Below are positions 2,504 through 63,653 of a stretch of DNA of 64,000 bases, piece by piece. The notes below the pieces were generated by a model. The model did not search any database. It was not told where the DNA came from and saw nothing but the letters and a program-made list of their open reading frames with translations. This DNA is from a virus. Location: the IMG/VR virus record IMGVR_UViG_3300032050_000004, positions 62,001 to 126,000 of that record. One strand, written 5' to 3'. Position 1 is the first letter of the stretch. Each line of letters starts with the position of its first letter. Both the position numbers and the translations under genes were made by a program.

Positions 2504-3349
2504 TTATATTTTTGAAAAAAACTTCACATAGTTGATTTTAAAAATACTTTCATCATATTTTACACCATCTACATTTGGGTGATATCCGTTATTTAATATT
2601 ATTTTCATTATTACATCTTCCTTGTTAAAATAATCTAAAATTTCTTTTTTTTCAGTTTTGAATATCAAATAACCATCATAATAAAACTTTATAAAACTTT
2701 CAGTCCAATGTAAAGCAAAAGTTGTTGGTCTTTTAGTTGGGTTGTTTGGTATCGGATAAACTTTAGCTCCATAACTTTTTTTTGTGTTATTTTCTACAAA
2801 TCCATAGTGTATATTTGGTTCAAACTTAACAAAAGGTATTCCGAATTGATTACTATAATCTGATCTTTTTCCACTATATGCTTCAAGTATATCTATTTCT
2901 GGTGGCCATGATTTTACAGCTGTTAACCAAATAGCAGGCCACAATAATTTACCTAATGGAAGAATACAATTCATTTCATAGTATCCATATTTAAAGCTTT
3001 GATTCGATGTTACAAGACCTATTCCATAATTTATATTTATTTCATTTTTATCCGGTTCAATAAATTTTTTTGGCTTGTATCTAGTATAGAGATTTAAACA
3101 ATTTTCTTTCACATCAATAAATTCTGTCCCCTTTCCATAGTATTGATAAGGAAATGAAGGATGAAATTCACCCCACTCATGTCCTTCTGACCATTTATTA
3201 GAATCTAATTTATCGCCATCAAAAAAATCACTAAATACCAATCTGTATTTTAATACATCTTTTGGTTTTCTGTTACTTGGTTTTACACAGAATAAAAATC
3301 TTATAAAAGATTTTATCTGAAACCATTTATTTAAAAAATATTCATTCAT
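2504..3349 (-). CDS. Glycoside hydrolase family 16 (endo-beta-glucanase type)
   Basis: 281 residues. GH16 catalytic signature E-I-D-I-L-E at residues 151-156, with nucleophile Glu151, assisting Asp153 and acid/base Glu156 all present. The flanking WPAIWLTAVKSWPPEID and the earlier FSDFFDGDKLDSNKWSE match the jelly-roll fold of laminarinase/agarase-type enzymes. These cleave beta-1,3/1,4 glucans or galactans. There is no clear signal peptide; residues 14-22 are only weakly hydrophobic. It is followed six bases later by the beta-helix gene's stop codon on the same strand. Likely a depolymerase for host capsule or algal polysaccharide. Exact substrate cannot be read from sequence. Confidence 0.85.
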   Translation of the reverse strand: MNEYFLNKWFQIKSFIRFLFCVKPSNRKPKDVLKYRLVFSDFFDGDKLDSNKWSEGHEWGEFHPSFPYQYYGKGTEFIDVKENCLNLYTRYKPKKFIEPDKNEININYGIGLVTSNQSFKYGYYEMNCILPLGKLLWPAIWLTAVKSWPPEIDILEAYSGKRSDYSNQFGIPFVKFEPNIHYGFVENNTKKSYGAKVYPIPNNPTKRPTTFALHWTESFIKFYYDGYLIFKTEKKEILDYFNKEDVIMKIILNNGYHPNVDGVKYDESIFKINYVKFFSKI

Positions 3350-3354
3350 GAATT

Positions 3355-4755
3355 TTATCTTGGAATACCAATATAACTAAATCTATTAGAACCACAACCG
3401 GGTCCTCCACAATTCTGTACAGACGTGCCATTAAACCAAGTTGGAACAGTAGTAGTTGGAGTATTTGTAGTAAGAGGATTTTCATTGTACGTTAATATCC
3501 AACCAACATTATTAGCATTATTAAAGAATTTTCCATTTTTAGCAACCCAATAAGATACATGAGAAATTTCTGCTGTAACATAACCGGTAGTGGCACCTAT
3601 ATCTGCTAGTATAGATGCGTATTGTCCAAATACCTTATCAATAGTTATTAATCCACTATGTATTCTAATTTTAATAAATGCTTCGGAAGCTCCATTTGTA
3701 CATTCAAAATGAGTGTTTTTTACTGTAAAATCTTTTACAACAGTTGATCCTTGTCCATTAAAATCTATACCTGCCCTAACAGATGAACCTTCAATGATAC
3801 AATCTTCAACAACACATCCAGAAGCAGCTATTATGCCGAATGCCATATCACCAGAACCAAAATATCTACAACTTCTAAATGTGGTATGATTTGATTGAGA
3901 ATTGAAATTTGTAGAACCTGCCCAATTTCCTCTGTCTGCAATCCAACCAATATTACAATTCGTTGCGAAACAATTTTCAATTGTAGTTCTAAGGGCAAAT
4001 CTTAAATGAATACATTCTTTTAAAGATTCTCCAAGTATATTTTGATAATACGCACCATATGAAGGACCAATATCTATACCAATTTGATTTGATGTGCCTT
4101 TTAAAACTAAATTTCTGAAAGTGCATCTTAAATCGACCATGACATTTGCATCTCCATTATCATTTGGAGAAGGTCTATTTAATATCGGTAAAGATCCTGT
4201 AGAAACTAATTTGGAATAACCTCCATCTATTTCAAAATATTTAGAATATTTTTCAATTGTTAAAGATTTAGGACCTAAATAATAAATTCCACCTTTTGCT
4301 TTAACGGTTCCACCATTAGAAGTTGCTAATTTGATTGCCATTTGCCATGCTGCCCAATCAACATTATCTGATATTGTTGCATTAATTCCCGGATAGTTAC
4401 TGTTTATTGTTGATTGAGAAATTCCAAGTTGAGCAAATGTTAAATTTTGTCTTACTGCCCCAAACTGTTCAGGAGAATATTCAATTGCTGTTCCGTTTAT
4501 AGTTATATTAGTTTCTTGACCCTTGAAAAGAGAATCTTCTACCCACACTCCATTTCCAATATGTCTATGTTGTTTACCATTAATTGGGTTGATATTGTAG
4601 TAACCCATTTTTATTGTATTGGTACTACTAAAGGGATTGTAATTTAATTCTGTAGTATCGGACAATACTCGATACCAGTTTATCGCTCTTTGTGCTATAA
4701 CATTGTTAGAACACAAAATAATTGCGATCAAATAAAATAATTTTAATTTATGCAT
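3355..4755 (-). CDS. Exported right-handed beta-helix protein (pectate-lyase-like fold)
   Basis: 466 residues. Signal peptide at residues 1-22 (hydrophobic core, end NNVIAQ). From about residue 120 the pattern DNVDWAAWQMAIKLATSNGG-TVKAKGGIYYLG is the start of the pectate-lyase-type beta-helix found in phage tailspikes and polysaccharide lyases. It is followed by repeating short strands (FRNLVLKG, VVEDCIIEGSS, VVKDFTVKNTHFEC). Such proteins bind or cut polysaccharides. A signal peptide is unusual for a tailspike, so it may be secreted instead. Overlaps the upstream gene by 13 bases. Confidence 0.75.
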   Translation of the reverse strand: MHKLKLFYLIAIILCSNNVIAQRAINWYRVLSDTTELNYNPFSSTNTIKMGYYNINPINGKQHRHIGNGVWVEDSLFKGQETNITINGTAIEYSPEQFGAVRQNLTFAQLGISQSTINSNYPGINATISDNVDWAAWQMAIKLATSNGGTVKAKGGIYYLGPKSLTIEKYSKYFEIDGGYSKLVSTGSLPILNRPSPNDNGDANVMVDLRCTFRNLVLKGTSNQIGIDIGPSYGAYYQNILGESLKECIHLRFALRTTIENCFATNCNIGWIADRGNWAGSTNFNSQSNHTTFRSCRYFGSGDMAFGIIAASGCVVEDCIIEGSSVRAGIDFNGQGSTVVKDFTVKNTHFECTNGASEAFIKIRIHSGLITIDKVFGQYASILADIGATTGYVTAEISHVSYWVAKNGKFFNNANNVGWILTYNENPLTTNTPTTTVPTWFNGTSVQNCGGPGCGSNRFSYIGIPR

Positions 4756-5291
4756 ATTTTTTCAAACTTTAATGTTTCATCATTCTTTAAAAGTCTTATA
4801 AAATAAATTCCTTTACTAAAATTTACTAAATTGACAGTAGTGTTTATGTTTATAAGTTGATTTGTCAAAATTAATTTATTGCAGGAATCATAAATTTCAT
4901 ACTGAACTTTTTCTTCATCACTGTAATTGTAGATATTGAATAGACCTGAACTTGGGTTTGGAAAAATACTGAATTCTTTATCTTTAATTTTTGGTACCAA
5001 CCAATAATCATATTCGGTAGGATCTGAAATTATTTTTCCATTTTTTTCAAAGGTGTATCCAAAAACTACATAATGACTTTGTGTACTATCGAAAAAAATG
5101 TTATTGTTATAAAAAGACAATTTCCACAATATATTTCCATTCTGATCAGTTCTTATTATATCGTATTCATTGGTTTTGTGATAGTTTAAACTATAATCAA
5201 AACCAATATCCAACCCTAAGACTTCTTGAGAATGACAAATGCTAGTTTTTAAAACTAGCATGAAAATAATTGAAATAAAATATTTTATCAT
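4743..5291 (-). CDS. Exported protein with T9SS type A sorting domain
   Basis: 182 residues. Signal peptide at residues 1-21 (ends CHSQ). Residues about 105-182 form a Por-secretion-tail (T9SS type A) domain: FSIFPNPSSGLFNI, then YEIYDSCNKLIL, NLVNFSKGIYFIRLL and the Lys-rich end. In Bacteroidetes this domain directs a protein from the periplasm across the outer membrane through the type IX system. The middle part is short and unrecognised. The octamer TATTTATT lies seven bases before the ATG (5299-5306). Either acquired from a host or used to place a phage product on the host surface. Confidence 0.8.
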   Translation of the reverse strand: MIKYFISIIFMLVLKTSICHSQEVLGLDIGFDYSLNYHKTNEYDIIRTDQNGNILWKLSFYNNNIFFDSTQSHYVVFGYTFEKNGKIISDPTEYDYWLVPKIKDKEFSIFPNPSSGLFNIYNYSDEEKVQYEIYDSCNKLILTNQLININTTVNLVNFSKGIYFIRLLKNDETLKFEKICIN

Positions 5292-5395: not shown

Positions 5396-6535
5396 TTAAT
5401 TTGATAATTCGCCTTTAATAGTTTGGTGACATATGTAATTTTCAATAATAAAATCTTCTATTTTCAAAGAATTAATAAATTGATCAAAATTGTTTTCTTT
5501 TTGAGTGAAGCCTATCCAATCATTATCTTTAATTTTTAAATTGCACAATTCATATGGTTGTCTTGTAATTTGTTCTTTAGCTTGATCAATATGATTTAAA
5601 TATAAATGAGTATCACCAAGATTGGCTATAAGTTTTTTTGGAACCATATCAAAAACTTGAGCTAAAATATTTAACAACAAACCATATGATGCCAAATTAA
5701 ATGGAAGGCCCAAGAAAGTATCTACTGATCTTTGATTCCAAAGCAAAGAAATTTCCCTTGATTTAACATTTGTATACTCATCTAGATAAATATGTTTTTC
5801 TTCATCACTTTTTTTATTGAACTCTTCTAAAACCTGTTCTTCTATTGTTGATGATTTATTCCAAATATTTATTCTTTTTTTTAAATCAATTTTTTGAGTA
5901 TATATTTGAAAGGAATAATGACATGGTGGTAGAACCATATTTTGAATATCTGATATATTCCAAGAATTGACAATCATTCTCCTGTCATCAGGATTATCTT
6001 CTAATTGAGTAAATATTTTTTTTATCTGATCTATTTCAAACTCCTGATAAATTTCAGTGACAGATCCTTGTTCGTTTATCTTTAATAATTTTTCAATTGA
6101 AGTCCATCTTCTCCATTGTTTACCATACACTGGTCCCAAATCTCCAAATTCATTTAAAAAATTTTGATTATTTTTTAATCTGTTTACAAATTCTTCTTTT
6201 GTCAATTTTATATCTACTTCATCCTTAACAAAAGGAACTTTATTATCAAATATTTTACAATAATTTTTATACAAATCACCATTCCATATGTTGCAATTAT
6301 TATCGATTAAAAACTTTACATTAGTATTTCCTCTTAAAAACCAAAGAAGCTCAGTAACTACTCCCTTAAAAAACATTTTTTTGGTTGTTAAAAGAGGAAA
6401 ACCTTCTGACATATCATGGATTAATTGTTTTCCAAAAACTGAAATTGTTCCAGTACCGGTTCTATCCATTTTAATAGTACCGTCATTTAAAATTTCACTT
6501 AAAAGATTTTGATAATTTTTATCTAAACTATTCAT
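5396..6535 (-). CDS. thyA: Thymidylate synthase (folate-dependent)
   Basis: 379 residues, longer than the usual 264-300. It methylates dUMP to dTMP using methylene-tetrahydrofolate. Visible motifs: the N-terminal DRTGTGT Arg, LLWFLRGNTN, GDLGPVYGKQWR, phosphate-binding DDRR, catalytic Cys205 in VLPPCHYSFQ, QRSVDTFLGLPFN and GDTHLYLNH. Extra length comes from two insertions, about residues 92-128 and 216-256, both Lys/Glu/Asn-rich. It overlaps the downstream end of the 6528-7640 gene by eight bases. A paralogue lacking the catalytic residues lies at 8145-9146. Confidence 0.95.
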   Translation of the reverse strand: MNSLDKNYQNLLSEILNDGTIKMDRTGTGTISVFGKQLIHDMSEGFPLLTTKKMFFKGVVTELLWFLRGNTNVKFLIDNNCNIWNGDLYKNYCKIFDNKVPFVKDEVDIKLTKEEFVNRLKNNQNFLNEFGDLGPVYGKQWRRWTSIEKLLKINEQGSVTEIYQEFEIDQIKKIFTQLEDNPDDRRMIVNSWNISDIQNMVLPPCHYSFQIYTQKIDLKKRINIWNKSSTIEEQVLEEFNKKSDEEKHIYLDEYTNVKSREISLLWNQRSVDTFLGLPFNLASYGLLLNILAQVFDMVPKKLIANLGDTHLYLNHIDQAKEQITRQPYELCNLKIKDNDWIGFTQKENNFDQFINSLKIEDFIIENYICHQTIKGELSN

Positions 6536-7665: not shown

Positions 7666-7869
7666 TCATCTTTTTCCAAAATCTATTCTTTGCCAAACTC
7701 TCTCATGTAAGAAATATAGTATCATTTTACTAATTACTTCAATACCACCTATAGTCACGCCCATTTTAATACTACCAGTAATAAAATAACTAATTACAAT
7801 TGTATCTATACTACCTATTATTCTCCAAGTAATAGTCTTTATAGCAGATCTATATACAGTGTTACTCAT
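7666..7869 (-). CDS. DUF2061 family membrane protein
   Basis: Start placed at the ATG at 7869, which gives 67 residues and an eight-base ATGAGTAA overlap with the gene before it; the longer form would add ten poor residues. Motifs of the family are seen: SAIKTITWRIIGSIDT, FITGSIKMG and the ending YFLHERVWQRI. Two hydrophobic segments, about residues 12-30 and 35-53, predict an inner-membrane protein. Family function is unknown; it is widespread in bacteria and occasional in large phages. Confidence 0.8.
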   Translation of the reverse strand: MSNTVYRSAIKTITWRIIGSIDTIVISYFITGSIKMGVTIGGIEVISKMILYFLHERVWQRIDFGKR

Positions 7870-8119
7870 TTGATAAATTGGTATTGAATGAAATATCAAT
7901 TAATTCAAATAACTGCTCCATAGCTTCTTCTGGACCAAAATGATAAAAGATAAGTGTTCCATAAAATTCAGCTAATTTTTTATAATTTTGCTTTGATGTT
8001 TTTCCAGCAGTATTAGTAATTATAAAATCGCCATTACTTTCACCTTTTGATGTGTCCGTTTCACCGATAGTGTAATCTCTTTTTTTTACTTCTTCATAAA
8101 AAAGCTCTAAACCTGTCAT
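7862..8119 (-). CDS. Hypothetical protein
   Basis: 85 residues, acidic. The centre has a Thr/Ser/Gly-rich stretch (ETDTSKGESNGDFI) and the C-terminus is helical. No domain recognised. Translationally coupled to the DUF2061 gene through an eight-base overlap. Confidence 0.65.
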   Translation of the reverse strand: MTGLELFYEEVKKRDYTIGETDTSKGESNGDFIITNTAGKTSKQNYKKLAEFYGTLIFYHFGPEEAMEQLFELIDISFNTNLSNE

Positions 8120-8144: not shown

Positions 8145-9146
8145 TTAATTTATTTTGAAATCTTCTAATTCTAAAGTCAATGAATCAAAATTTTTTCTTT
8201 TAATATCTATTTTGTAATTATTCTTAACTTTTTTGGACATTTTTTTATTTAACTTATAAGTTGAATTAATGATAATGTTATTTGGAATCATCTTAAATAA
8301 ACTTGATACATACTTAATCATAAAAACGTTAAATAATATCTTCTTTTCTAAATCTATGTTATCTTCAATAACATTATAATCAGCAATTAAATTCACTTTA
8401 TATTTAGGAACATAAACAATTTCTTCATACCAATTAACTGCATCTAGATCGTTATTTTTCCTGAAATTTTCTAGAAGAATTTCATACTCCATACCGGTTT
8501 CATAATAGTTTTGAAGAAACCATTTTACCCTATCCTCAAAATTAATTTCTTCACAAAATATTTTAATATATAATAAATTATTTTTTATTAATCTATCATC
8601 GAAATTATTTAGATTATAGAAATTTAATACATGAAACCCTCCAACAGGATCAGTTGCTAAAGAATTAATAATTTGTTTGAACTGGTCTTTACCTTTTTTT
8701 GAAATTGTTCCTTTGTCTTCACTGTCAAAATTAATTTCTATCCCCCAATTTCTAAATTCTATAGAATCGCTCATACCAAAATCACCCCAAATATTTGAAA
8801 ATTCTGGATCTGTTTTGATTTTAGCTAAAAATTCTAATTGTGTAAATTTTTCGAGTTGTTTCCAATTACTAAACCAGCCATGAAAAAATTCAGATTCTTC
8901 AATTATATCACTAAGTTCATAGTGTTTTATTAGACTATCTATTTCGATACAATATTTCTTATATAAAATATCGATGAAACCATGATGGTTATTTTCTAAT
9001 AGATACTTTGAATTATTAGTTCCATTGAAAAACCAAATAAACTCAACTAAATTTTCTCTAACTTCACGATACTCTAGCGATAATTCTAACGGTTCAGAAC
9101 AGTTTATTTTTTTACGAAAATTAAGTTCTTTATTATTTTTAGACAT
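8145..9146 (-). CDS. Thymidylate-synthase-like protein lacking catalytic residues
   Basis: 333 residues. It aligns by eye along its length with the thyA product at 5396-6535. VRENLVEFIWFFNGTNNSKYL matches VVTELLWFLRGNTNVKFL; FSNIWGDFG matches FLNEFGDLG; VLNFYNLNNF matches IVNSWNISDI; IKYVSSLFKMIPNNIIIN matches LNILAQVFDMVPKKLIAN. In a gapless stretch the catalytic Cys is replaced by Asn190 and the phosphate-binding Arg pair by Gly-Phe; the LPPC loop, QRS and GDTH motifs are also gone. It shares the first thyA insertion, so it likely arose by duplication in a phage lineage. Probably not a synthase: perhaps a regulatory partner or inhibitor. Overlaps the next gene's stop by one base. Confidence 0.75.
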   Translation of the reverse strand: MSKNNKELNFRKKINCSEPLELSLEYREVRENLVEFIWFFNGTNNSKYLLENNHHGFIDILYKKYCIEIDSLIKHYELSDIIEESEFFHGWFSNWKQLEKFTQLEFLAKIKTDPEFSNIWGDFGMSDSIEFRNWGIEINFDSEDKGTISKKGKDQFKQIINSLATDPVGGFHVLNFYNLNNFDDRLIKNNLLYIKIFCEEINFEDRVKWFLQNYYETGMEYEILLENFRKNNDLDAVNWYEEIVYVPKYKVNLIADYNVIEDNIDLEKKILFNVFMIKYVSSLFKMIPNNIIINSTYKLNKKMSKKVKNNYKIDIKRKNFDSLTLELEDFKIN

Positions 9147-9460
9147 TATAATTCTTGGGCACTCTCATCATTAGACTGAGTATCTTTATCGTTTTGAGCA
9201 GCATTATTGACTGCATTAAGAGCTTCAATTCTTAGTTTATTTCTCAAAACAAAATCGAATATAGTAAGTTGCTTTCCGTCTTCATCCAATATAACATTTG
9301 ATACAGGTATACCTCTAAGATCTTCACCAATTTTAGCAACTACAACTAATTCAAAATCTAATTTTTCTTCTGGAATCTGATTGATGATTTCTTTGAATTT
9401 TCTAATTGAAAGCACATCTTGGTCTGAAGCTGCTGTGTAATAGTTCGTTAATTTTTCCAT
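9146..9460 (-). CDS. Hypothetical protein
   Basis: 104 residues. A compact alpha/beta part (FELVVVAKIGEDLRGIPVSNVIL) is followed by an Asn/Asp/Gln-rich flexible tail (NDKDTQSNDESAQEL). Not recognised. One-base overlap with the start of the thymidylate-synthase-like gene indicates co-translation. Confidence 0.65.
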   Translation of the reverse strand: MEKLTNYYTAASDQDVLSIRKFKEIINQIPEEKLDFELVVVAKIGEDLRGIPVSNVILDEDGKQLTIFDFVLRNKLRIEALNAVNNAAQNDKDTQSNDESAQEL

Positions 9461-10682: not shown

Positions 10683-11498
10683 TTAGTTTTTTGTAAACCT
10701 AACACGATTGCCTCGTTTATGGAAATTAAAGATCTCCTCAAGAAGCATAAGGTATTGCTCTGTATTAGCACATCTTACCATATTTCGTTGTTGCATAGCA
10801 ACCTTTTTAAGCATTTCAGAGTGGTCATATTCTGGGTGCTTCAAAAGCGATAATACAGCATAGACAAAAGATTTACGTCTGTAGCCTTTATAAAACTCGG
10901 CAAATTGAGAAACTTTTTGTGCTGCGATTTCAGCTTCCTCTAAAGATTTGATCTTCAAATTACCATCATTGAATATTTTTGAGAAATTAGATGTACTTCC
11001 CATCAAAAAAGCCAAACTTTCTTGGTGACCAAACCCATATTTAGCACGAAAATCTTTGTATTTGATGTAGTCCTCAATTCCCTGTCCACAGTAACACTTT
11101 AAATAGTCGTCTACATTCCAGTTTTTCATGTGGGTATTAAGCTTCTGAATTTCTTTAATACCATAACCGGGGTTAATGATGTAGTAAACTGGCATATTAA
11201 GCTGTTTACATACTTCGAGTCGATGTTGACCATCAATAACTTGATTTTTCTCATTAACGATGATGGGAATAACAAGTTGTTTTTCTTCGAAAGACTTTTT
11301 AAGTCTATGAAGGTGACCCGGATGGACCATTCTATTTCCATCCATTAATTTGAATTGATCATAGTTAAAGGTTGAATAGACTTTTCCAACCTCTTGATTG
11401 ATAGGTTCTTGCCTAACGGTTAATGTAGTCAATTTTTCCATCAAATCAGTTTTCTGGATACCTTGCTCGTGGGAGCTAGTTTTTTGATTTTCAGTCAT
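10683..11498 (-). CDS. ParB-like nuclease-domain protein
   Basis: 271 residues. Residues about 50-100 carry a ParB N-terminal-like fold: MVHPGHLHRLKKSFEEK, then VIPIIVNEKNQVIDGQHRLEVCKQL, with the conserved D-G-Q-H-R. The remainder is helical. Proteins of this type are common in Bacteroidetes phages and plasmids; some ParB-like proteins bind CTP or act as nucleases, others regulate DNA. No HTH is obvious. It stands alone, with its own terminator and a roughly 145-base AT-rich upstream region. Confidence 0.75.
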   Translation of the reverse strand: MTENQKTSSHEQGIQKTDLMEKLTTLTVRQEPINQEVGKVYSTFNYDQFKLMDGNRMVHPGHLHRLKKSFEEKQLVIPIIVNEKNQVIDGQHRLEVCKQLNMPVYYIINPGYGIKEIQKLNTHMKNWNVDDYLKCYCGQGIEDYIKYKDFRAKYGFGHQESLAFLMGSTSNFSKIFNDGNLKIKSLEEAEIAAQKVSQFAEFYKGYRRKSFVYAVLSLLKHPEYDHSEMLKKVAMQQRNMVRCANTEQYLMLLEEIFNFHKRGNRVRFTKN

Positions 11499-61079: not shown

Positions 61080-63653
61080 TTATCCGCATTTACTTAATCC
61101 ACATTTAGGACAACTTAAACAACCTTCAGTATATTGCAAAGCACAATCTGGATCATTATTTACACACTTTGCATTTTTGGCCTTTGTTCCATCCTTAATA
61201 TATTTTTTTATTGTACGGATGATACCACTTTTCCAAGTATCTAATCTTTCTTCATCAAGATTGAGTTTTTCAACCATTTCAACAACATATTCCAGTGGCA
61301 TACCATGACGTAAAATTCCAGAAATCATTTTTGCATAATTATGATACGTTACATCAAAAGCATTTGATAAACCTTCAATTACCATCACATCATCAGATTT
61401 TGGATTTATTATAAAATCATATCTTGACGTTTCATCTATCTTGAGTCTTCTAATTTGACCATTTTCAACATTTTTAGGAATTCTGAATGCATCCTCTAAA
61501 CCTGTAAAGATCTCATAAGGTCTACCCTCCAACAAACCTACAAACGCAATCCATTTTTCACCCTTATTCATAAATCTATGAACTTGAGCATCTAAAAATT
61601 TAGGACGTTTTGGAGCATGATTATCTTCAAATAATTTTTTCTTTTCTTCTTCTTTTTTAGTTTCTTCAGAAATCAAAACTCCACTTCTTGATCCGTCACG
61701 ATATACGGTAATTCCTTTACAACCACTTCTCCATCCGGTTTCATAAACTTTTCCAACCATTTCTTCAGTAATTTCATTTGGAAGATTTACGGTAACAGAA
61801 ATACTATGATCGACATGTTTTTGAATTCTGCCTTGCATTTCTACTTTTTTAACCCAGTTTACATCATTTGAGGTTGCTTTGTAATAAGGAGACTCTTCAA
61901 TTAATTTTTTAATTTCAGATTCACTAAGATTTTCAATGTGAGATTTTTCATAACCCTTAGCTCTCAAATAATCTATAAACTTATGATGGAAAACTGGATA
62001 GTTTTGCCAACTATCACCAACCTGATCTACGAAATCAACTCTAGCATCTTTATCATTTGGATTGATTTTTCTTCTTCTCATATATGATATTAAAAATGCA
62101 GGCTCAATTCCGGATGTTGTTTGTGTCATAATTGAAACTGATCCAGTAGGAGCAATAGTCAATAGTGCAATATTTCTTCTTCCATATTTCATCATATCAG
62201 AATATAATTCGATATCCTCATCTTTTATTCTGTTTATAAAAGGATTATTTCCTTCTCTTATAACTTCATAAATTGGAAATGCACCACGTTCTTTTGCCAT
62301 ATTAACAGATGAACGATAAGCTGAAAGTTTCAATTGTTTGTGAACTTCCTCGGTTACATCATTCGCTGTATCAGTTCCATAAGTAATTCCTAAAGCAGCA
62401 ACCATATCACCTTCTGCAGTAACACCAAGACCGGTTCTTCTTCCTTTGATACATTTGTTTTTAATATTTGTCCAAAGATTTTTTTCTGTTAATTTCAAAA
62501 ATTCATCTTCTGGATCAGTATCAATTTTTTCAAGAATTTTGTCAACTTTTTCAATTTCAAGATCAATTAGATCATCCATTAATCGTTGAGCAATTACAGC
62601 ATGTTTTTTGAATAAATCCCAATTGAAATAAGCTCCTGATGTGAAAGGATTTTCTACATAAGAATATAAATTCAAACATAATAATCTACATGAATCATCT
62701 GCACAAAGAGTAATTTCACCACAAGGATTTGTTGAGATTGTTTTAAATCCTAGGTCAGCATAACAATCAGGTATAGATTCTCTGATGATTGTATCCCAGA
62801 ATAAAATTCCCGGCTCTGCTCTTTGCCAAGCATTATGAACGATTTTTTTCCAAAGATTTGTAGCATTAATTTCCTTAGTGAAAGTTGGATTTTCACTATC
62901 AACTGGAAATTTAGCTGTGAATGGAGTTTCTGATAAAGCTGAATCCATAAATGAATCACTAATTCTTACTGACACGTTTGCTCCAGTTACTTTTGTTGGA
63001 TCCATTTTAGCATCAATAAAATCTTCTGCATCAGGATGAACAACAGAAAATGATTCCATTAAAGCACCTCTTCTTCCATCTTGTGCCACTTCTCTCGTTG
63101 AATTTGAAAATCTTTCCATATAGGGAACAACACCAGTACTTGTTAAAGCACTATTTTTTACAGATGTTCCTTTAGGTCTTATGAAAGATAAATCCAAACC
63201 AACCCCAGCTCTTCTTTTTTGTAATTGAACCAATTCTTGGTCTAATTTCAGAATACCACCATAAGAATCACCTTCGCCCGGATTACCAATAACAAAACAG
63301 TTAGAAATTGATACATATTGAAAATTATTACCAATTCCTGCCATTGGACTTCCTTGTGGCACTATATATTTAAATCTTTTGATAAGGTCAAAAATTTCCT
63401 CTTCAGATAATGGGTTTGGATATTTTTCCTCGATCCTAGCAAATTCTTTTGCAATTCGCTTATGCATATCATCTGGAGTCATTTCATAAATGTTTCCAGC
63501 ACTATCTTTTAATGCATATTTGTTAATCCAAACTTGAGCAGCTAATTCATCGCCCTCAAAGTACTCTAAACAAGCTTTAAACACTTGATCTCTCGAAAAT
63601 ATCTGTAGATTTTCTTCTTTTTTTGTTTGTTTTTTTTCTTTTTGTAATTCCAT
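61080..63653 (-). CDS. nrdJ: Class II (adenosylcobalamin-dependent) ribonucleotide reductase
   Basis: 857 residues. Ten-stranded barrel landmarks: YVSISNCFVIG (first active Cys), LQKRRAGVGLDLSFIRPKGT, NPCGEITLC (N-C-E triad), GRRTGLGVTAEGDMVAALG, IALLTIAPTGSVSIMTQTTS, and the C-terminal VNLPNEITEEMVGKVYETGW-RSGCKGITVYRDGSR. The last residues CLSCPKCGLSKCG hold the redox Cys used by thioredoxin. It makes deoxynucleotides without a separate radical subunit and needs vitamin B12, so it functions with or without oxygen. Works with thioredoxin, dNMP kinase and ThyA from this genome. Confidence 0.93.
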   Translation of the reverse strand: MELQKEKKQTKKEENLQIFSRDQVFKACLEYFEGDELAAQVWINKYALKDSAGNIYEMTPDDMHKRIAKEFARIEEKYPNPLSEEEIFDLIKRFKYIVPQGSPMAGIGNNFQYVSISNCFVIGNPGEGDSYGGILKLDQELVQLQKRRAGVGLDLSFIRPKGTSVKNSALTSTGVVPYMERFSNSTREVAQDGRRGALMESFSVVHPDAEDFIDAKMDPTKVTGANVSVRISDSFMDSALSETPFTAKFPVDSENPTFTKEINATNLWKKIVHNAWQRAEPGILFWDTIIRESIPDCYADLGFKTISTNPCGEITLCADDSCRLLCLNLYSYVENPFTSGAYFNWDLFKKHAVIAQRLMDDLIDLEIEKVDKILEKIDTDPEDEFLKLTEKNLWTNIKNKCIKGRRTGLGVTAEGDMVAALGITYGTDTANDVTEEVHKQLKLSAYRSSVNMAKERGAFPIYEVIREGNNPFINRIKDEDIELYSDMMKYGRRNIALLTIAPTGSVSIMTQTTSGIEPAFLISYMRRRKINPNDKDARVDFVDQVGDSWQNYPVFHHKFIDYLRAKGYEKSHIENLSESEIKKLIEESPYYKATSNDVNWVKKVEMQGRIQKHVDHSISVTVNLPNEITEEMVGKVYETGWRSGCKGITVYRDGSRSGVLISEETKKEEEKKKLFEDNHAPKRPKFLDAQVHRFMNKGEKWIAFVGLLEGRPYEIFTGLEDAFRIPKNVENGQIRRLKIDETSRYDFIINPKSDDVMVIEGLSNAFDVTYHNYAKMISGILRHGMPLEYVVEMVEKLNLDEERLDTWKSGIIRTIKKYIKDGTKAKNAKCVNNDPDCALQYTEGCLSCPKCGLSKCG

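Follow-up and report, generated by a model that had tools for sequence, protein, structure and literature searches.

What is the role of a second thymidylate synthase-like gene that lies beside an intact thyA in a phage genome, if its product has lost the active site? Thymidylate synthase (TS) is among the best-studied enzymes and is usually viewed as a slowly changing housekeeping protein. The DNA analysed here, referred to as the window, is a stretch of 64,000 nucleotides (positions 62,001 to 126,000) that forms part of the 222-kb virus record IMGVR_UViG_3300032050_000004. It encodes a ThyA (P0002) with all 16 of the functional residues checked below, which by sequence is a normal enzyme, and, 1.6 kb upstream of thyA and likewise on the minus strand, a protein designated P0001 that is predicted to be a catalytically dead paralogue (Table 1).

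The nearest annotated relatives of the window thyA belong to Flavobacterium and Chryseobacterium phages and to metagenomic megaphages, and the phage gene at 4743-5291 encodes a T9SS type A sorting domain (TIGR04183, E = 8.6e-12), which points to secretion by a Bacteroidota host. Given these relatives and the sorting domain, the host of this large phage is probably a member of the Bacteroidota. Elsewhere in the window are genes for a glycosyl hydrolase family 16 protein (2504-3349; PF00722, E = 1.3e-10) and a ParB-like protein (10683-11498; phrog_12305, E = 1.7e-32).

Table 1. Positions of the features discussed. Coordinates are those of the window, except in the last line, where they refer to the loci named.
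Feature	Position	Strand	Comment
P0001, predicted catalytically dead TS paralogue, 333 aa	8145-9146	-	
Codon for Asn190 of P0001	8577-8579	-	Aligned with the catalytic cysteine (C146 of E. coli TS, C205 of ThyA)
P0001 insert 1, residues 61-121	8784-8966	-	Variable part and frame FTQLEFLAKIKTDPEFSNIWG
P0001 insert 2, residues 199-250	8397-8552	-	Frame EEINFEDR and type-A cassette WFLQNYYETGMEYE
Gene upstream of P0001, 104 aa, putative	9146-9460	-	Its stop overlaps the P0001 start
Gene downstream of P0001, 85 aa, putative	7862-8119	-	Same strand as P0001
ThyA (P0002), 379 aa	5396-6535	-	PF00303, E = 3.5e-89; phrog_160, E = 7.6e-101
ThyA insert 1	6134-6271	-	Cassette unlike that of P0001
ThyA insert 2	5744-5893	-	Cassette unlike that of P0001; variable part 13% identical to P0001
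Tandem X arrays (see text), mostly immediately upstream of thyA	L272 5639-8769; L289 3-3846; L251 4749-9259; L254 6535-8408		

P0001 as a remote homologue of thymidylate synthase

In a BLASTP comparison, residues 33-294 of the 333 in P0001 aligned with the window ThyA at 22% identity (E = 8e-16). The original prediction that the two proteins align over almost all of their length holds for this part, while the first 30 or so and the last 40 or so residues of P0001 were left unaligned in the pairwise comparison. The homology itself was supported by a profile-profile check, in which hhalign of P0001 against a profile of four ThyAs, with P0001 left out, gave E = 8e-15. A profile of 82 phage ThyAs scored P0001 at E = 7.9e-20 and 70.9 bits, as compared with a peak of 11.0 bits for 1000 shuffles of P0001. 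After removal of both inserts (see below) the score was 49.9 bits against 8.0 in shuffles, the columns of this core profile being taken from an alignment that had included P0001. The score of P0001 for PF00303 was 17.3 bits, under the gathering cut-off of 24.3 bits. On these scores, P0001 is identified as a remote thymidylate synthase homologue.

An AlphaFold2 model of P0001, obtained with a ThyA alignment as input, had a pLDDT of 71.7 and a pTM of 0.67. With this model, whose input alignment consisted of ThyAs, the top 50 Foldseek matches were all TS, the best rows having TM values of 0.41-0.45. VIA-align gave a Z of 14.2 over 233 residues with the E. faecalis TS, and its top 50 rows were also all TS. 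Structure prediction, proposed originally as a check of the fold, thus returned a TS-like fold; as the alignment supplied was one of ThyAs, this outcome shows consistency with TS and is not an independent proof of the fold.

The P0001 start codon overlaps the stop codon of the preceding gene (TAATG). The G+C content of P0001 is 23.6%. As judged by base composition, 10% of codons would then be stops by chance, and the probability that 333 codons stay open in neutral sequence is about 1.5e-16. The other frames at this position have 13 to 62 stops each. A neutral frame at the divergence of P0001 would have closed. That P0001 is not a decaying pseudogene, as had been proposed, agrees with the intact frame, with homology scores far above those of shuffles and with the TS-like fold predicted from the ThyA-based alignment. 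The 85-aa gene that lies between P0001 and thyA overlaps at its end with a gene for a DUF2061 membrane protein (7666-7899; E = 3.7e-23).

No relative of P0001 near enough for a dN/dS comparison was found among the matches listed in viral or genome contig collections, and in isolated phages P0001 gave weak matches alone, mostly to TS.

Loss of active-site residues in P0001

The 16 functional residues, each of which is nearly invariant in 68 ThyAs, were checked column by column, and P0001 retains one of them, E35 (E. coli E58). As compared with the E. coli TS, the R21 loop is absent, W80 and Y94 are replaced by F57 and D127, and the arginine pair R126/R127 is replaced by G170/F171. C146 and H147 correspond to N190 and L191, with N190 lying in the context LIKNNLLY instead of LPPCH. 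Q165/R166/S167 are Y257/N258/V259 in P0001, D169 and N177 are E261 and K269, and the H207/Y209 motif is absent. In place of the phosphate-binding arginines 21, 126', 127' and 166, P0001 therefore has a gap, G170, F171 and N258, respectively. The losses described in the original prediction (Cys to Asn190, DDRR, LPPC, QRS and GDTH) were upheld by this alignment, and P0001 is predicted to be catalytically dead, with both the substrate and the cofactor chemistry gone.

Inserts of ThyA and P0001

Both ThyA and P0001 carry two inserts, insert 1 in the small domain and insert 2 between the post-cysteine strand and the QRS strand; in P0001, about 80 residues of TS core lie between them. One phage-specific insertion shared by the two proteins had been predicted. 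Two exist, and the second alone looks phage-specific, since an insert at the insert-1 site is present in cellular TS of the L. casei / E. faecalis type as well.

Insert 1 of P0001 is closest to the long insert-1 type of the ThyAs from loci L057, L070, L077 and L100 (33-35%). Its insert 2 shares 43% identity with insert 2 of the L092 ThyA, and 65% identity over 52 aa with the tail of a 157-aa non-TS protein from megaphage LR756500.1. This protein (L003 4692-5165) ends in the P0001-like insert-2 module and is encoded far from the phage's own divergent TS. Among the matches listed, the insert-2 module of P0001 was found elsewhere just in LR756500.1 and in IMG/VR contig 3300025030_000039, in the same gene.

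The median identity of P0001 to ThyAs was 19% in the mid core, 16% in the C-terminal core and 39% in the insert-1 frame. Active ThyAs have a conserved core and variable insert middles, whereas P0001 shows the reverse. Conservation of the hydrophobic core, given originally as a reason to think that P0001 is retained, does not fit this pattern, as the mid and C-terminal core are the worst-kept segments and the insert-1 frame is the best-kept.

Exchangeable cassettes in phage ThyAs

The inserts were compared in 80 related phage ThyAs from IMG/VR, taken among the matches listed (L-numbers denote loci). Segments of ThyA and of the X proteins described below were delimited by regular expressions, and the flanking cores are fixed stretches around the inserts. 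In these 80 ThyAs, the frame of insert 1 is YKNY ... EEFINKIKTDDEFAKKWGEL and that of insert 2 is YTRELSxEER ... IPTRAISLMWN, and the middle of each is wholly variable. Both cassettes can differ completely between ThyAs with 85-95% identical cores (L024-L103). In ThyA pairs with 85-90% identical flanking core, the variable middles had median identities of 15% and 17%, which is chance similarity, and the identity was the same in pairs with 70-75% core identity. The two inserts reassort independently of each other.

A further variable site lies between QWRxW and DQI in the ThyAs of the Flavobacterium phages immuto 2-6A (L004 4992-6263) and immuto 3-5A (L329 3001-4272), which are near-identical save for one wholly replaced segment of ~20 aa at this site; both isolates infect Flavobacterium sp. 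LMO8. A third insert (RPLTFDERYKLYSKSDTTWEEGGGN...), close to the C-terminus of the L004 immuto ThyA, resembles the insert-2 type of the L039 ThyA, one cassette type thus being found at two sites. The L086 module gave a weak PHROG match to a homing-endonuclease family (E = 0.057). In four loci (L260 1997-2683, L283 6707-7384, L301 9244-9786 and L317 653-1147), foreign sequence (ADLPVTDYRTDDELY..., GKSDDKLYEDYLKK...) follows NAWNV or WRNW and cuts the thyA frame short, as would result from an intron or an inserted gene.

A family of proteins with both insert frames

Some non-TS proteins carry the two insert frames side by side. They were detected by a pattern search and a profile search, together with a family designated X, for which the locus counts given refer to the matches listed. 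This family has no database name and was found in the present analysis; it gave no significant match to a Pfam or NCBIfam family. The X proteins are 105-160 aa long and consist of DEAYENY, variable segment 1, EEFINKCKTDxEFSEKWG, LKIE, ERELSLEER, variable segment 2 and NIPTKLITITYNDKTIESYE. Because the end of X matches RAISLMWNQRSVDTF of ThyA in the alignment, X would represent a TS with the core deleted.

X genes often form tandem, overlapping copies, with four in L272 and a maximum of eight per locus among the matches listed. In loci found via X, 46 of the 48 copies beside an insert-bearing thyA lie upstream on the same strand. In 11 loci the TS that comes after X lacks the inserts, and in 15 the sequence downstream of X is free of TS over at least 4 kb. 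Insert-free TS with PCA replacing PPCH are encoded downstream of X in L276 (9983-10825; PF00303, E = 1.8e-59), L307 (2889-3758) and L319 (3470-4306). Among the loci found by ThyA, X or a similar protein was present in two of the 66 with enough upstream sequence. The X profile matched ThyAs alone in isolated phages, and in the genome of P0001, from which X is absent, it matched just P0001 (E = 1.4e-4) and ThyA (E = 2.3e-3).

X and ThyA draw on one pool of variable segments: with a threshold of E<=1e-3, a ThyA insert was matched by 33 of 171 X segments and by none in the reversed control, and all 38 cassette pairs matched site to site (1 to 1 or 2 to 2). One pair has 86.8% DNA identity over 136 bp. 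The mid frame of X had a pN/pS of 0.21 (2415 pairs) as compared with 0.27 for ThyA, both being uncorrected proportions from pairs that are not independent; X is, as judged by these ratios, kept by purifying selection. The protein is predicted to form a compact domain (pLDDT 87), and comparison of the model with the PDB gave neither a Foldseek match at E<=0.001 nor a VIA Z >=5, an absence that says little.

No further full-length dead TS copy was found in the fetched loci. Matches of the ThyA profile without PC[HT], considered as candidates, were fragments, a ThyA-like protein (L007), X proteins or insert-free, active-type PCA TS, and a search for dead copies by a DNA pattern, with FRNW behind the insert-1 frame, gave no match.

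Possible roles of P0001

The insert segments of P0001 are better preserved than its active-site core, which suggests that P0001 may be kept for its insert surface. Hence, we put at about an even chance the reading that P0001 is a TS-derived pseudoenzyme retained as a non-catalytic binding protein via this insert-borne surface. Selection would then keep a putative binding surface made of the inserts on a TS-like scaffold, and the cassettes would set its specificity. On weaker grounds, the partner would be whichever factor recognises the corresponding face of ThyA, either one from the host or a rival, with P0001 acting as a decoy or shield, or a partner from the phage itself. As X appears to be retained by selection, the insert surface alone, without TS, would be kept in other phages. 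Given that P0001 has no close homologue, its link to X is drawn from the shared segments, the weak profile match and the position. Against a binding role are the full-length core of P0001, the absence of X from this genome and the rarity of X beside such ThyAs.

The segment swaps, the non-catalytic carriers and the retention pattern of P0001 would together indicate strong outside pressure on one face of ThyA, and what binds at this variable face becomes a testable matter. A broader proposal, which is less probable, is that X and P0001 are both TS-derived non-catalytic copies of a modular surface domain of ThyA with at least two cassettes, and serve in Bacteroidota-type phages as separate binding proteins, perhaps as decoys or as a shared pool in an arms race over ThyA.

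The TS enzyme works as an obligate dimer, in which each active site uses two arginines of the partner subunit. P0001 could therefore form heterodimers with the phage or host ThyA and slow the enzyme, Gly and Phe replacing the arginines that are borrowed across the dimer; without this pair, inhibition rather than help would be expected in a mixed dimer. The TS-like predicted fold and the lost arginine pair are in keeping with this, and dead paralogues that control active enzymes exist, as in the case of deoxyhypusine synthase (PMC3663545). However, among the parts of the dimer face, the C-terminal core is weakly kept and the N-terminal strand is missing, the inserts are kept best, and the fold model, having been built from a ThyA alignment, is not independent. 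Heterodimer inhibition is thus possible and is the main rival, but is less supported than a binding role and on the whole unlikely.

The sharing of one cassette pool by X and ThyA, site to site, the high DNA identity of one such pair and the single replaced segment in the immuto ThyAs would also be expected if P0001, like X, were a cassette reservoir that recombines into thyA and alters the ThyA surface, as silent pilin or vls cassettes do for their expressed copies. This is made improbable by the 24 loci that have both X and ThyA, in none of which the two had a cassette match. In addition, X lies upstream of an insert-free thyA in 11 loci, purifying selection on X is as expected of a translated protein, and the variable parts of insert 2 in P0001 and its own ThyA are too distant for homologous exchange.

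TS proteins bind their own mRNA, and the retained Glu58 (E35) might be taken to indicate that P0001 keeps some other TS property, either binding of its own or the ThyA mRNA or an altered chemistry. As the phosphate-binding arginines, the cysteine and the checked folate-site residues are all lost, and no feature of P0001 points to RNA, there is little likelihood of this. Least probable of all is a functionless copy of thyA, decaying or neutral. The lost active site, the lost ends and an identity down to 22% would fit such a copy, but a frame saturated with changes has stayed free of stops, its start is fused to the upstream stop and insert 2 is still highly similar to a protein of another phage.

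Comparison with known systems

Searches of open-access papers brought up no report of a dead or a hypervariable TS from phages. With ThyA of the L. casei / E. faecalis type (PF00303, phrog_160), P0001 has in common sequence homology over most of its length, the small-domain insert and the TS-like fold predicted from the ThyA alignment. It differs in the loss of 15 of the 16 checked residues, the reduced ends, the additional second insert and a score below the Pfam cut-off. The insert-bearing ThyAs of immuto, Chryseobacterium phage MA9V-3, the megaphages LR756502 and LR745206, and L024-L103 have both inserts like those of P0001, with the frames EEFINKIKTDDEFAKKWG and ELSxEER in common. However, those examined are of the active type, whereas P0001 is predicted to be dead and is about 20-26% identical to them.

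X proteins (for example, those of L272 and L289) resemble P0001 in being non-catalytic, in carrying both inserts with their frames and in being encoded upstream of, and in the same orientation as, thyA. Unlike P0001, they are short and often in tandem, whereas P0001 retains the full TS core between its inserts; on account of this full-length core, P0001 is not classed as an X protein despite its X-like position.

In silent cassette systems (pilS / vls), the donor and the expressed copy within a genome share sequence that permits recombination, whereas the inserts of P0001 and its own ThyA are unrelated. A dead paralogue beside an active enzyme, as proposed for P0001, is known from the deoxyhypusine synthase of trypanosomatids, in which the inactive paralogue and the active enzyme form a heterotetramer with activation (PMC3663545); for P0001, inhibition would be the likelier outcome.
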